Below are positions 4,690 through 54,550 of a DNA stretch of 54,550 bases, one piece after another. Source of the stretch: Rhodothermales bacterium (lineage in GTDB: Bacteria; Bacteroidota; Rhodothermia; Rhodothermales; UBA10348); assembly GCA_040221055.1 (NCBI GenBank), contig JAVJVN010000006.1:1-54550 (forward strand). The letters run 5' to 3'. A program made the position numbers and the translations under genes. The notes under the pieces were generated by a model. The model did no database searches, had not been told where the DNA came from, and saw only the letters and a program-made list of their open reading frames with translations. Positions within the stretch are counted from its first letter, which is position 1, and every line of letters starts with the position of its first letter.

Positions 4690-5943
4690 TCAAACCGTTC
4701 GGCTCTGTGCGTCCACGGTCCAGGTATCCACGACCTCGTCGCCGTCCACCACGTACACCTCGCGCTGCGTGTTCACGACGACACACGCGTGGTTGGGGAT
4801 GATACGCACGGTGTCGCCCACGTCGAGGGTCGCCCCCCCGCGCACGCCGACCCAGCCGTGCTCTTCGGAGAGCCCCGTTATCCGGTGATGCGGCAGCGGC
4901 TCCATGGTCTGGTGGTTGTACAGGATGACCCCATATCCCTCGTGTCCGTAGGCGGAGTCGGAGGTGAAGACTTTCTTGCCGGCATCCAGGAAGAGGCGTT
5001 CGCCACCGTCCCGGTTCCGATGCTTCGAGATGACGGTGGCCTGGACGGTCAGGGCGCACTGGCGGTAGGAGGCCACGCCGAGGCCCACCTGCGTGGCATC
5101 GTGGAAGACGTAGTTTCCGGGGCGGATTTCGGTCACCCGAAATCCGCCCGTAACGGCGTTCTCGAAGTAGCGGAGGCTGGGGGTGGAGCCTATGCTTATC
5201 TCAAAGGCGGGGCGAACAGTATCTCCAGATTGCTTTCTGGCATCCTCTCGCGATGGTACAGCGAAACCGGCCTCGGTCGGCGCAACAGCCAAACCTGCCT
5301 TGGAAAGCCGGACGGCGGTCTCCAGCATGCGGTCGCGCTCGGCGTTGGAGGCCCGCCGCAGGGCCTGCTCCCGGGTTTCGCGGACGACGCCGTCGGCGTC
5401 GGGCTGCGGGCCGTAGTAGGCATCGCCCGCGTGGGTCAGGATGCCAATCAGGTCCAGGCCCGGCAGGTCCGCCATGGCGCGGGCCACCTCGGGCAAATCC
5501 GGATCGTCCCACTGCACACCGCATCGGTGGTAGCCGGCGTCGATTTCCAGGAGGACGCGGGCTCGGCGGTCGTGCGCGGCATACCAGTCCGAAACGGCGC
5601 GAGCACCTTCGGGCGTATCGACACAGAACGAAATCCGGGCTCCCGCATCTTCCAGTCGGACCAGGCGCGCCCACTTTTCGGCGCCGAGGGTGACGTAGGC
5701 CAGGCGGATATCGGTGAATCCCCGGGCCGCAAAGACTTCGGCCTCGCCCACCTTGGCCACGGTAAGACCCGTGGCGCCAGCGGTCCGCTGCAGGCCTGCC
5801 AGCGCCACCGACTTGTGTGTCTTGGTGTGCGGCCGGAGAGCCACGCCCTGCGTTTCGGCGCGTTCGGCCATGGCGTCCAGGTTGGTCTGGAGGCGCGTCC
5901 GGTCAATGAGGACGGCGGGCGTGGGGAGCTCGGAAATCAGCAT
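4690..5943 (-). CDS. D-threonine aldolase/D-serine dehydratase-like PLP enzyme
   Basis: This 417-residue protein has the fold-type III pattern. An alanine-racemase-like N-terminal barrel opens with ELPTPAVLIDRTRLQTNLDA, and RPHTKTHKS holds the probable PLP lysine (K41). The C-terminal domain of the D-serine dehydratase-like family ends with PNHACVVVN, whose His-x-Cys pair matches the metal ligands of that family. It should act on D-hydroxy amino acids in the cytoplasm, by aldol cleavage or dehydration; the sequence alone does not separate the two. The PD40 lipoprotein gene lies just 7 bases upstream, suggesting co-transcription. Confidence 0.85.
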   Translation of the reverse strand: MLISELPTPAVLIDRTRLQTNLDAMAERAETQGVALRPHTKTHKSVALAGLQRTAGATGLTVAKVGEAEVFAARGFTDIRLAYVTLGAEKWARLVRLEDAGARISFCVDTPEGARAVSDWYAAHDRRARVLLEIDAGYHRCGVQWDDPDLPEVARAMADLPGLDLIGILTHAGDAYYGPQPDADGVVRETREQALRRASNAERDRMLETAVRLSKAGLAVAPTEAGFAVPSREDARKQSGDTVRPAFEISIGSTPSLRYFENAVTGGFRVTEIRPGNYVFHDATQVGLGVASYRQCALTVQATVISKHRNRDGGERLFLDAGKKVFTSDSAYGHEGYGVILYNHQTMEPLPHHRITGLSEEHGWVGVRGGATLDVGDTVRIIPNHACVVVNTQREVYVVDGDEVVDTWTVDAQSRTV

Positions 5944-51069: not shown

Positions 51070-52206
51070 TTACGGTTTTTGGTATGATGGAGCCATCGCC
51101 CTGACACGTGGATAAAGATGGGAGTCAATGAGATAAAATAGCCCATCATGGTACGCTCCTACTTCAATCTGGCTCTGGACACTGGACAATCGGCCCGCCC
51201 CGTTCTCCCGAAAACGGGCCGAGGACAACAGCTCACCGTCAACTGAATACTCTTCCATCCTGATTACGAATTCACCCTCGTCGCTCTCTGAATCCAGTAT
51301 GTAGAACAACGCTATAGTCTTGTCGCTGGTAAACAAGACGCCGATGGCTCTGGACAATATTTTTGCAGCATAATCACCCTCGACAACGGTCCTGATGAGT
51401 AGAGCATCTGTCGGGCGATCGTCAGGGTCATACACAGCTATCGGATCAGACAAAAAGGACGACGTTTCTACGAATCGAGCCTTCGACCACCGCGATCCAT
51501 CATATTCGAAATAATATATCCTTCCTTCAAATACAGGAGGGACATATACGAGACTGGATTGATGAACATCAAAATAGCCTGGATTATAGTCCATGAAATT
51601 AGCGACGAACCCGGTTGTATCCACCTGCATATGTCTTGTCATTCCGAACTTGGAAATAACGCTGAACTCGCGATCGACGTGCGCGAACAGCGGCCGTGAC
51701 TCTTCGACAGGCCTCCCGGATCGACCCACCAGGATCACATATTCGCCGCTATCTATTTGTCGTATTCTACGCGGAAAGCCTACGTTGTCAAACGCATGGG
51801 TTGCGTCCAGATCTCCAGAGGACGAGAACACCTTGAACCGTCTCGACCGATAATCCGACACAACCAAACTGCCATCCGAATTGACCGTGAACGTGGACAT
51901 GGAGCTCAATTCCTCAGGTGCGAGACCTCTGCTTCCATATACATTGACGACTTTACCTGACGCGTTTACCTGCCTGACATGCATCGGCATATCATCCGCA
52001 ATGTAAATACTGTCTGCCGACAATACGAAGATATCATCGATATCACCGAAAAGATCCATTTCATCCTCTGAATCCATTTTGCCAATCGAAAACGACTCCG
52101 TCCACCCCGTAGTCTGAGCAACAACATGATCACTCTGCACACTGTATGACAAAGCGATAACGATAATCAATATTTTTCGCATTACTTTATAGTATTTAAT
52201 ACGCAT
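51070..52206 (-). CDS. Secreted 6-bladed beta-propeller protein
   Basis: The 378-residue protein begins MRIKYYKVMRKILIIVIALS, with a signal peptide ending VVAQT. An AAGG lies 7 bases before ATG 52206; ATG 52182 is the alternative start. The body matches the NHL-like 6-bladed propeller family of Bacteroidota: GDIDDIFVLSADSIYIADDM, VNVYGSRGLAPEEL, FTVNSDGSLVVSDYRSRRFK. It ends with VGAYHDGLFYLIDSHLYPRV. It is the third gene of an AT-rich cassette with the Cys-rich peptide and thioredoxin-like genes. Related propeller genes near small Cys-rich NVEALA-type peptides are known in gut Bacteroidota (recalled). Function unknown. Confidence 0.8.
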   Translation of the reverse strand: MRIKYYKVMRKILIIVIALSYSVQSDHVVAQTTGWTESFSIGKMDSEDEMDLFGDIDDIFVLSADSIYIADDMPMHVRQVNASGKVVNVYGSRGLAPEELSSMSTFTVNSDGSLVVSDYRSRRFKVFSSSGDLDATHAFDNVGFPRRIRQIDSGEYVILVGRSGRPVEESRPLFAHVDREFSVISKFGMTRHMQVDTTGFVANFMDYNPGYFDVHQSSLVYVPPVFEGRIYYFEYDGSRWSKARFVETSSFLSDPIAVYDPDDRPTDALLIRTVVEGDYAAKILSRAIGVLFTSDKTIALFYILDSESDEGEFVIRMEEYSVDGELLSSARFRENGAGRLSSVQSQIEVGAYHDGLFYLIDSHLYPRVRAMAPSYQKP

Positions 52207-52232
52207 CAGTTTACCTTATGCTTTACGCGAAT

Positions 52233-52262
52233 GAGCGGGGTACCCATAGAGGCACCCCGCTC
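52233..52262 (-). terminator. Intergenic hairpin between peptide and propeller genes
   Basis: GAGCGGGGT (52233-52241) and ACCCCGCTC (52254-52262) form a perfect 9-bp GC-rich stem in an otherwise AT-rich gap. It stands between the Cys-rich peptide gene and the start of the propeller gene on the minus strand. No clear T-run follows, so it may be a partial terminator or a mRNA 3'-end protector that lets the peptide be made in excess. Confidence 0.45.
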
Positions 52263-52320
52263 TTTGATAAAAACACATTACAATGGAATATCTACCGCAT
52301 CATTGCGTTGACAGCAGTCA

Positions 52321-52569
52321 TCAACATTCCGAGTTCCATTCATTGCACATGTCTGGCCCGTCTTCACAGCTCCATGGATGTGTATCTTGCGTACAAGAAA
52401 AGTAGCCTGACACCGACTGTACACACACCAAGCCTTGACAATCTAGACAGCATTTTTCCGGGGCGGCCGTACTCGTAGCTTCAGCAAGACCACTTGGAAA
52501 CATAAGTGCGGCTGCAAGTAATAAGCACGCTGCGATAGGTGCAATGTTGTTTTTGATATTCTCCATCAT
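52321..52569 (-). CDS. Secreted cysteine-rich small peptide (8 Cys)
   Basis: ATG 52569 has a strong GGAGGG (52577-52582) seven bases upstream; the product is 82 residues. Residues 10-30 are a signal peptide (PIAACLLLAAALMFPSGLAE). The mature part, about 50 residues, has cysteines at 40, 41, 44, 49, 59, 68, 75 and 82, ending WNSEC. This could form four disulfides. It is similar in plan to NVEALA-type peptides of Bacteroidota, but the NVEALA motif itself is not present. Directly downstream of the thioredoxin-like gene, which could oxidise or reduce it. Could be a signal, toxin or structural peptide; unknown. Confidence 0.72.
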   Translation of the reverse strand: MMENIKNNIAPIAACLLLAAALMFPSGLAEATSTAAPEKCCLDCQGLVCVQSVSGYFSCTQDTHPWSCEDGPDMCNEWNSEC

Positions 52570-52596: not shown

Positions 52597-52623
52597 CCTC
52601 ACCAAAAGATGGCGCGAGGTACC

Positions 52624-53196
52624 TCACGCCTCCAGCTTGGATCTTAGACGCTCGGCGAATTCAATTTTTAAGTCCAAAGGCGACACCGAATTAGCCCTCA
52701 GTTCATTGTTCCAGATTAGTCTACCCGACTTAATATCTATGATCATCATTCTCCTCGGACCTACGTCCGCAATTGGTAATTTAAATTCCTCTACCAATTC
52801 TGAGTAAGTCAAAGCATGTGTATCTACCTTGATGCCTGAAATACGAATGAATCTTTCGGCATTTCTTAATGTCGAATCGACCACAATAACAGCTTTGGAG
52901 CTTACAGTAATACTGCCAAAATCAAATTTATTGAGGAGGCTGTCAAATTGTTCAATCTCAAGCAGACACCCCGTGCACGAGCTTGGTACAATGATGTAAT
53001 AGACCAGGTAATCAGCTTGACTGTTTGACGCCAGTGATGGGATTCCAATTTCTTGATTCAATAACGTTACCCAGTCTTCCCCAGCATCGTCTCCAATCCG
53101 ACCGTCACCGGTATAAACGATCTTTGCGACAACAACTACGAATGCCATCAGAGCAACAATCATACTAAAAACTGTTTTCAGACGCTGTCTGCCCAT
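52624..53196 (-). CDS. Membrane-anchored thioredoxin-like (TlpA-type) protein
   Basis: The 190-residue protein has one N-terminal helix (about residues 8-27) and then a periplasmic domain. YLVYYIIVPSSCTGCLLEIE carries a CTGC motif (C74, C77) at the end of a beta-strand, as in thioredoxin-fold proteins, followed by a helix (QFDSLLNKFD). RRMMIIDIKSGRLIWNNE looks like the later strand region, but the cis-proline is not obvious. It is likely a thiol-disulfide enzyme or a redox-active partner for the cysteine-rich peptide encoded 54 bases downstream. The gene is AT-rich and unlike the core genes in codon use. Confidence 0.7.
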   Translation of the reverse strand: MGRQRLKTVFSMIVALMAFVVVVAKIVYTGDGRIGDDAGEDWVTLLNQEIGIPSLASNSQADYLVYYIIVPSSCTGCLLEIEQFDSLLNKFDFGSITVSSKAVIVVDSTLRNAERFIRISGIKVDTHALTYSELVEEFKLPIADVGPRRMMIIDIKSGRLIWNNELRANSVSPLDLKIEFAERLRSKLEA

Positions 53197-53238
53197 TGGA
53201 CGTAATGATTATCAGTTCTTTATTGGTCCACTGTCAGG

Positions 53239-53267
53239 ACACTACAAAAAAAAAACTAGTATGTCAA
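53239..53267 (-). promoter_or_regulatory. Promoter of redox-peptide cassette with T10 spacer
   Basis: On the minus strand TTGACA (53262-53267), a 17-base spacer and TAGTGT (53239-53244) make a close match to -35/-10 boxes, 43 bases ahead of the thioredoxin-like ATG. The spacer holds ten consecutive T's (53246-53255), and slippage there would change promoter spacing. GGACACT (53237-53243) and AGTGTCC (53270-53276) form an inverted repeat that brackets the promoter, a possible operator. Confidence 0.5.
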
Positions 53268-53323
53268 GCAGTGTCCCGTATTAGTGCGTTCCACTCTACT
53301 TCCAACCGCCGAGGCCAACAGGC

Positions 53324-54550
<1,227 letters not shown>

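Follow-up and report, generated by a model that had tools for sequence, protein, structure and literature searches.

On the minus strand of the window, by which we mean the whole 54,550-nucleotide stretch of DNA analysed here, a run of ten T's (T10) lies between a -35-like and a -10-like hexamer. It stands 49 nucleotides ahead of a cassette of three genes, which encode a CxxC protein, a cysteine-rich peptide and a beta-propeller protein. Judged from the sequence, T10 is on balance probably a slippage-prone promoter spacer, and the cassette that it would control has probably been acquired horizontally. The evidence favours a phase-variable promoter of the kind described for porA and fetA of Neisseria.

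In the proposed mechanism, polymerase slippage would add bases to T10 or delete them, and a changed tract length would set the distance between -35 and -10 to 16, 18 or worse instead of the present 17 nucleotides. The 17-nucleotide spacing that comes with ten T's is predicted to be active and near-optimal, and other lengths would weaken the promoter. Cells of one population would then express the cassette at differing levels.

The promoter-like site

The site occupies positions 53237-53276 of the window, where the minus strand reads GGACACTGCTTGACATACTAGTTTTTTTTTTGTAGTGTCC. From 53276 to 53237 its layout is GGACACTGC-TTGACA-TACTAGTTTTTTTTTTG-TAGTGT-CC. The original prediction had described TTGACA and TAGTGT 17 nucleotides apart on this strand, with ten T's in the spacer and a GGACACT/AGTGTCC repeat bracketing the whole, and each of these elements is present. 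The -35-like TTGACA (53262-53267) agrees with the consensus at six of six bases. T10 itself (53246-53255) lies inside the 17-nucleotide spacer (53245-53261), and one base past it comes the -10-like TAGTGT (53239-53244), which fits TAnnnT. With T10 there is a homopolymer of at least eight bases between the two hexamers, as in promoters of the porA and fetA kind, next to a -10 that matches TATAAT at only three of six bases. A transcript driven by TAGTGT would start near 53232, 36 nucleotides before the ATG at 53196.

The promoter is flanked by the 7-bp inverted repeat, with arms at 53270-53276 and 53237-53243, which is a possible operator. Its fold is mildly unusual, since 3 of 200 shuffles of 56 nucleotides fold equally well (z -2.6), and on its own the repeat around T10 is weak evidence.

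Our promoter scan requires at least four of six matches per hexamer. The pair TTGACA-17-TAGTGT is absent from its output because the -10 scores 3/6, and the promoter listed there is CTGACA-18-GATAAT (53208-53237, minus strand; 10/12). It may be that this second site is the active promoter, and that the tract and the inverted repeat together form an upstream control site of variable spacing, comparable to the R28/Spy1337 case discussed below. We regard this as unlikely but worth keeping in view. The repeat does frame T10, and a T9 tract in genome G201 sits upstream of another possible promoter, TTGATT-17-TTAACA. A transcript from CTGACA-18-GATAAT would, however, begin only a few nucleotides from the ATG, and we saw, by eye, no inverted repeat around the A10 and G10 tracts described below.

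The promoter consensus of the host may differ from that of sigma-70, and we found no enrichment signal for the sigma-70 or the Bacteroidota type. The Bacteroidota-type promoter consensus is TTTG / TAnnTTTG. In upstream regions of the same genome, TAnnTTTG, which would stand about 20 nucleotides after TTTG, occurs in 0 of 154 (1.6 expected by shuffling), and the sigma-70 consensus is likewise unenriched (4 of 154 against 2.7 expected).

Rarity of the tract in its genome

Apart from T10, the window has no run longer than its two 7-mers. The 3.32-Mb genome holds five A/T runs of at least ten bases, and only two of them are interior, namely T10 and a run on contig C20 (C20:137229-137238); the remaining three are at the very starts of contigs C13 and C18, within 61 bases. 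Three more interior A/T runs are 9-mers, on C9, C19 and C22, and by eye these look like intrinsic terminators. We also considered T10 as a terminator and rejected this, a GC stem being absent, by eye, directly before the tract.

T10 exceeds chance expectation in this genome. Against shuffles of its own 150-nucleotide upstream region its p-value is 0.0002. Of 170 control regions taken upstream of genes in the same genome, 15 of them with less than 50% GC, none has a run longer than six; these controls were drawn from 450.5 kb, comprising 20 sampled stretches (one partly masked) and the window up to 50,500. The T10 segment has a GC content of 44.5%, in an island of 44-47%, against 64%, and so low a GC content favours A/T runs.

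This compositional difference is the starting point for another explanation, that T10 is an ordinary A/T-rich spacer in a foreign low-GC island with no role in switching. Most related cassettes lack a long run, as described below, which fits such a spacer. The empty own-genome controls, including those of low GC, argue against it, as do the G runs found at a similar place in relatives and an enrichment across the class that survives stratification by GC. We consider it rather improbable.

Poly-G of this kind of length is commoner. Overlapping poly-G matches of at least nine bases number 93 in the source genome (G000), 8 in G001, 105 in G002 and 230 in G003, and among the matches listed many cluster at contig ends or in palindromes. 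Finding a run of G is therefore less exceptional than finding one of A or T.

A further cassette of the source genome, and its relatives in congeners

The other interior run, an A10 on the coding strand of C20, lies 35 nucleotides before a second Cys-rich peptide gene, which is followed by a propeller gene. Here the coding strand carries TTGCGC-18-TACAAT, with A10 within the spacer. Each of the two sole interior A/T runs of at least ten bases in the genome is upstream of such a cassette. Searched with our propeller profile, the source genome gives three propellers at an E-value of 1e-20 or better, among the matches listed, and the Pfam model adds one further propeller on C15. A Cys-rich peptide (among ORFs of at least 60 amino acids) stands beside two of these four, and both cassettes carry a run of ten.

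Of the three congeners, two have relatives of the C20 propeller, at 49% and 39-50% identity. The run in G002 is a G10 whose end lies 40 nucleotides ahead of the peptide start, with TATCGT after it. The run in G001 is a G7 whose end lies 36 nucleotides ahead of the peptide start, with TATTGT after it, and there the frames of both peptide and propeller are broken. A10, G10 and G7 are thus homopolymers at a matching promoter position whose base differs among the congeners, where matching means an equal distance from the start and not base-by-base homology; non-coding DNA aligns poorly. The differing bases (T, A, G) at a similar place suggest that it is the homopolymer that is kept, rather than a sequence that is bound or an A/T tract that is bent. 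The G runs likewise make an UP element, or bent A/T-rich DNA, an unlikely account of T10. G008 encodes a more distant relative of the C20 propeller (28% identity), which lacks a recognisable peptide and has no tract ahead of its gene.

Survey of the class

With a profile built from four first-gene proteins, relatives come up in 20 of the 244 genomes searched in the class, which we take to be Rhodothermia, at 28 places including the window, and the propeller profile reaches 70 of the 244, among the matches listed. We fetched 25 and 80 stretches, mostly by rank, and those left out were mainly weaker or contig-edge propeller places. Together with the window and loci L048, L139 and L140 this gave 109 loci with 158 propeller ORFs. 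Among these loci a script recognised 40 cassettes of a Cys-rich peptide and a propeller, 26 of which have a CxxC gene. The 40 exclude the broken G001 copy (L140) and include two with doubtful peptides (L105 at 1049, and L227). The tracts at L241 and L245 were left uncounted because genes there are broken or unrecognised, and a match to the first-gene protein at L014 was left out, since its translation pointed to a different gene. A script scan for unrecognised Trx-like genes ahead of the peptide-led cassettes found none.

Runs of at least eight bases in the 150 nucleotides before the first gene are found in 11 of the 40 cassettes, compared with 3 of 131 control regions upstream of other genes at the same loci (p = 7e-6). 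These counts follow the transfer by hand of one locus, L278 (T13, 44 nucleotides upstream), from the controls to the cassettes, because its gene turned out on reading to head a cassette; before this move they stood at 10/40 and 4/132 (p = 8e-5). Propellers without a recognised peptide also serve as a comparison, where 10/40 cassettes stand against 3/95 (p = 3e-4). The enrichment persists when the test is stratified by GC and, in that test only, four near-duplicates are dropped to leave 36 non-redundant cassettes (p = 4e-5). In the highest stratum, with upstream GC above 50%, all 5 cassettes lack a tract.

For runs of at least seven that end 30-65 nucleotides upstream, the GC-stratified p-value is 6.5e-6. 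Among the 17 cassettes outside the set from which the hypothesis was formed (L278 included), 5 have a run at that position, against 3 of 131 controls (p = 5e-4) and 0 of 15 of their own controls (p = 0.03). For runs of at least eight, the same cassettes do not differ significantly from their own controls (3/17 against 0/15, p = 0.14). Of 27 Trx-led loci, 25 had an upstream region that could be used. Shuffle p-values at these, in a comparison that has no control genes, are for the most part unexceptional (mean of 0.47; Fisher chi-square of 72.6 with 50 degrees of freedom). The longest run is at most five bases at 15 of the 25.

Tract-bearing cassettes span eight genera in five families. The idea that every such cassette has a tract was rejected, as 29 of the 40 lack a run of at least eight.

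From these results we tentatively put forward a wider reading, which we would call possible but would stop short of calling probable. Across the class, mobile cassettes of a CxxC redox protein, a variable secreted Cys-rich peptide and a propeller would be contingency loci with a homopolymer switch in the promoter spacer. The base of the tract would be interchangeable (T, A, G, perhaps C), and the switch would be repeatedly gained, lost and replaced, as under frequency-dependent selection on, for example, a peptide toxin, a signal or a phage-exposed surface factor.

Tract bases and flanking hexamers

The tracts of at least eight bases are T13 in G166, A12 in G107, T10 in the window, A10 on C20 of the source genome, G10 in G002, T9 in G029 and in G229, G9 in G069, and T8 in G083 and in two copies in G097. 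A TAnnnT hexamer begins at the tract end or no more than three nucleotides from it in nine of the eleven (8/10 when only distinct tracts are counted), where shuffled flanks predict 1.39 of 11; at the end of control runs of at least seven it is found in 4 of 15. TTG[AC] starts 20-25 nucleotides before the tract end in seven of ten distinct promoters (0.83 expected), and is absent at the tested distance in G107, G069 and G002. Both hexamers accompany five of the ten distinct tracts, those of the window, C20, G029, G097 and G229, although in G229 the spacing from TTGACA to TACCCT is only 13 nucleotides. Because the hexamers and the limits of distance and position were chosen after examples had been viewed, all of these figures are optimistic.

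The tract ends bear on the suggestion that T10 belongs to a control site upstream of CTGACA-18-GATAAT. Many tracts elsewhere end at TAnnnT, and the one in G029 ends at a perfect TATAAT, which fits that suggestion poorly; short arms, AGGGT/ACCCT, around the T8 of G097 fit it better. The promoter-spacer reading, in which the hexamers at either end of the tract are the promoter itself, is the one that we continue to prefer.

Differences between copies, and the assemblies

The tandem copies a and b of the cassette in G097 differ by five substitutions over about 885 nucleotides (99.4% identity) and by two indels. One of the indels sets T8 in one copy against T4CT2 in the other, and the second indel is an A3/A4 step. 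In G201, copies that differ by 12 substitutions in about 900 nucleotides have a T run of T6 or T9; these are the copies whose T9 precedes the separate promoter mentioned above, and their genes are broken. In both genomes the tract changes are between paralogues and not within a clone.

The original prediction that a homopolymer may switch this promoter is strengthened by the A10 on C20, the G10 and G7 of the congeners, the enrichment in the class, the flanking hexamers and the altered tract in G097. It does not extend to the tract-free majority of the cassettes.

The end of the contig is 1.3 kb away from T10, and the starts of C13 and C18 (L005 and L009) are rich in homopolymers and look to be of low quality; the length of T10 and the splitting of the neighbouring orfB, described below, are therefore uncertain. 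The possibility that T10 is an assembly artefact is countered by the tract on C20, which is deep inside its contig, and by the cases in congeners and in the rest of the class, which come from separate assemblies.

Several further observations were made at the multi-copy loci. The G097 locus (L105, on C6) has three tandem cassettes in which promoter and CxxC gene are near-identical; the propeller sequences differ, and so do those of the two peptides that were recognised. This suggests diversifying selection or recombination past the first gene. Just past its T8 tracts lies a 15-nucleotide palindrome, ACCCTGAATCAGGGT, that overlaps the -10-like hexamer and is a possible operator. The G201 locus (L245) also has three tandem cassettes, with broken CxxC genes, and two of its copies show no substitution over about 900 nucleotides, yet differ in the lengths of their C runs. 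At L260 (G050, C24), runs of G25, G14, G12 and C49 occur at 4945-5116, in and just after an ORF, and are a probable assembly artefact.

Relation to known systems

Phase-variable promoters are known chiefly in host-associated pathogens. In Mycoplasma, poly-A tracts are found in the promoters of the Vlp surface lipoproteins. Switched genes tend towards exposed or costly products, so the function of the cassette would, if our reading is true, become more approachable. The bacteria of the source clade are presumably free-living. The reading would then imply that a secreted redox-peptide system is switched stochastically outside hosts, in several genera and with a spacer of interchangeable base. 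In the open-licence literature we found no report that describes promoters or cassettes of this kind from the clade.

The closest parallel is with Neisseria. According to one account, the length of a homopolymer between -35 and -10 sets the spacing of the porA and fetA promoters and thereby their transcription, the tract of gonococcal porA is a mixture of poly-T and poly-G, tract lengths differ between strains, and an effect on fetA expression is reported (PMC5320596). The window promoter resembles porA and fetA in having a homopolymer between a putative -35 and -10. It differs in that those are single genes, whereas the window case belongs to a recurring family of cassettes in a different phylum and with a different product.

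An intergenic poly-T tract of 8-13 bases is also described for Spy1336/R28 of Streptococcus pyogenes, where a change of one base alters transcript levels (PMC7098570). The window cassette is similar in having an intergenic poly-T upstream. The model given there, however, is an altered site or spacing for the neighbouring regulator Spy1337 and not a -35/-10 spacer (PMC7098570).

The cassette and its surroundings

The first gene of the window cassette (52624-53196, minus strand) encodes a membrane-anchored thioredoxin-like protein of 190 amino acids with the CxxC motif CTGC. It is followed on the same strand by the gene for a probably secreted Cys-rich peptide of 82 amino acids with a hydrophobic signal segment (52321-52569), and by one for a six-bladed beta-propeller protein of 378 amino acids (51070-52206), which matches Pfam DUF5128 at E = 5e-5, barely past the cut-off. 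The products may be exposed at the surface, to judge by their hydrophobic signal and anchor segments only.

The original prediction spoke of a redox-peptide cassette, and in outline this was right, as the order of CxxC protein, Cys-rich peptide and propeller recurs in related loci. The first protein may have a thioredoxin fold of the StoA/ResA-like kind, to judge by weak matches. The protein itself has no meaningful match in Pfam. Among 22 relatives, three give a weak match to AhpC-TSA, the best at E 0.0013. A profile of the family matches StoA (3erw), a thiol-disulfide oxidoreductase, at E = 0.001. CxxC is kept in 22 of 26 aligned first-gene proteins, counted by eye.

An IS3-family remnant (53323-54294, minus strand) lies upstream, with its orfB in two frames (53614-54285 and 53354-53779). 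DNA matches to other IS3 copies run from about 53323, and this end of the remnant is 46 nucleotides upstream of the inverted repeat. The start of a second insertion sequence follows (54295-54550, plus strand) and ends at the contig edge; we take it to be ISL3-like, and 126 nucleotides of it recur without a difference close to the end of another contig. The low-GC island and the flanking insertion sequences make the cassette look horizontally acquired.

The IS3 remnant is on the same strand as the cassette and could contribute read-through transcription. Taken further, the cassette might be expressed, if at all, only by such read-through, or might be decaying, with the tract as a relic. The proximity of the remnant and its divided orfB would fit this, as would the isolation of the first protein, whose best relative among the 244 genomes of the class is only 26% identical, with nothing closer. 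All three cassette frames are open, however, and no substitution breaks T10, and we think this explanation very improbable.

Two structures lie within the cassette itself. A terminator-like hairpin is found at 52611-52630, at the end of the CxxC gene and ahead of the peptide gene, and a GC-rich stem at 52230-52265, between the peptide and propeller genes. Either of these could uncouple the expression of the three genes.
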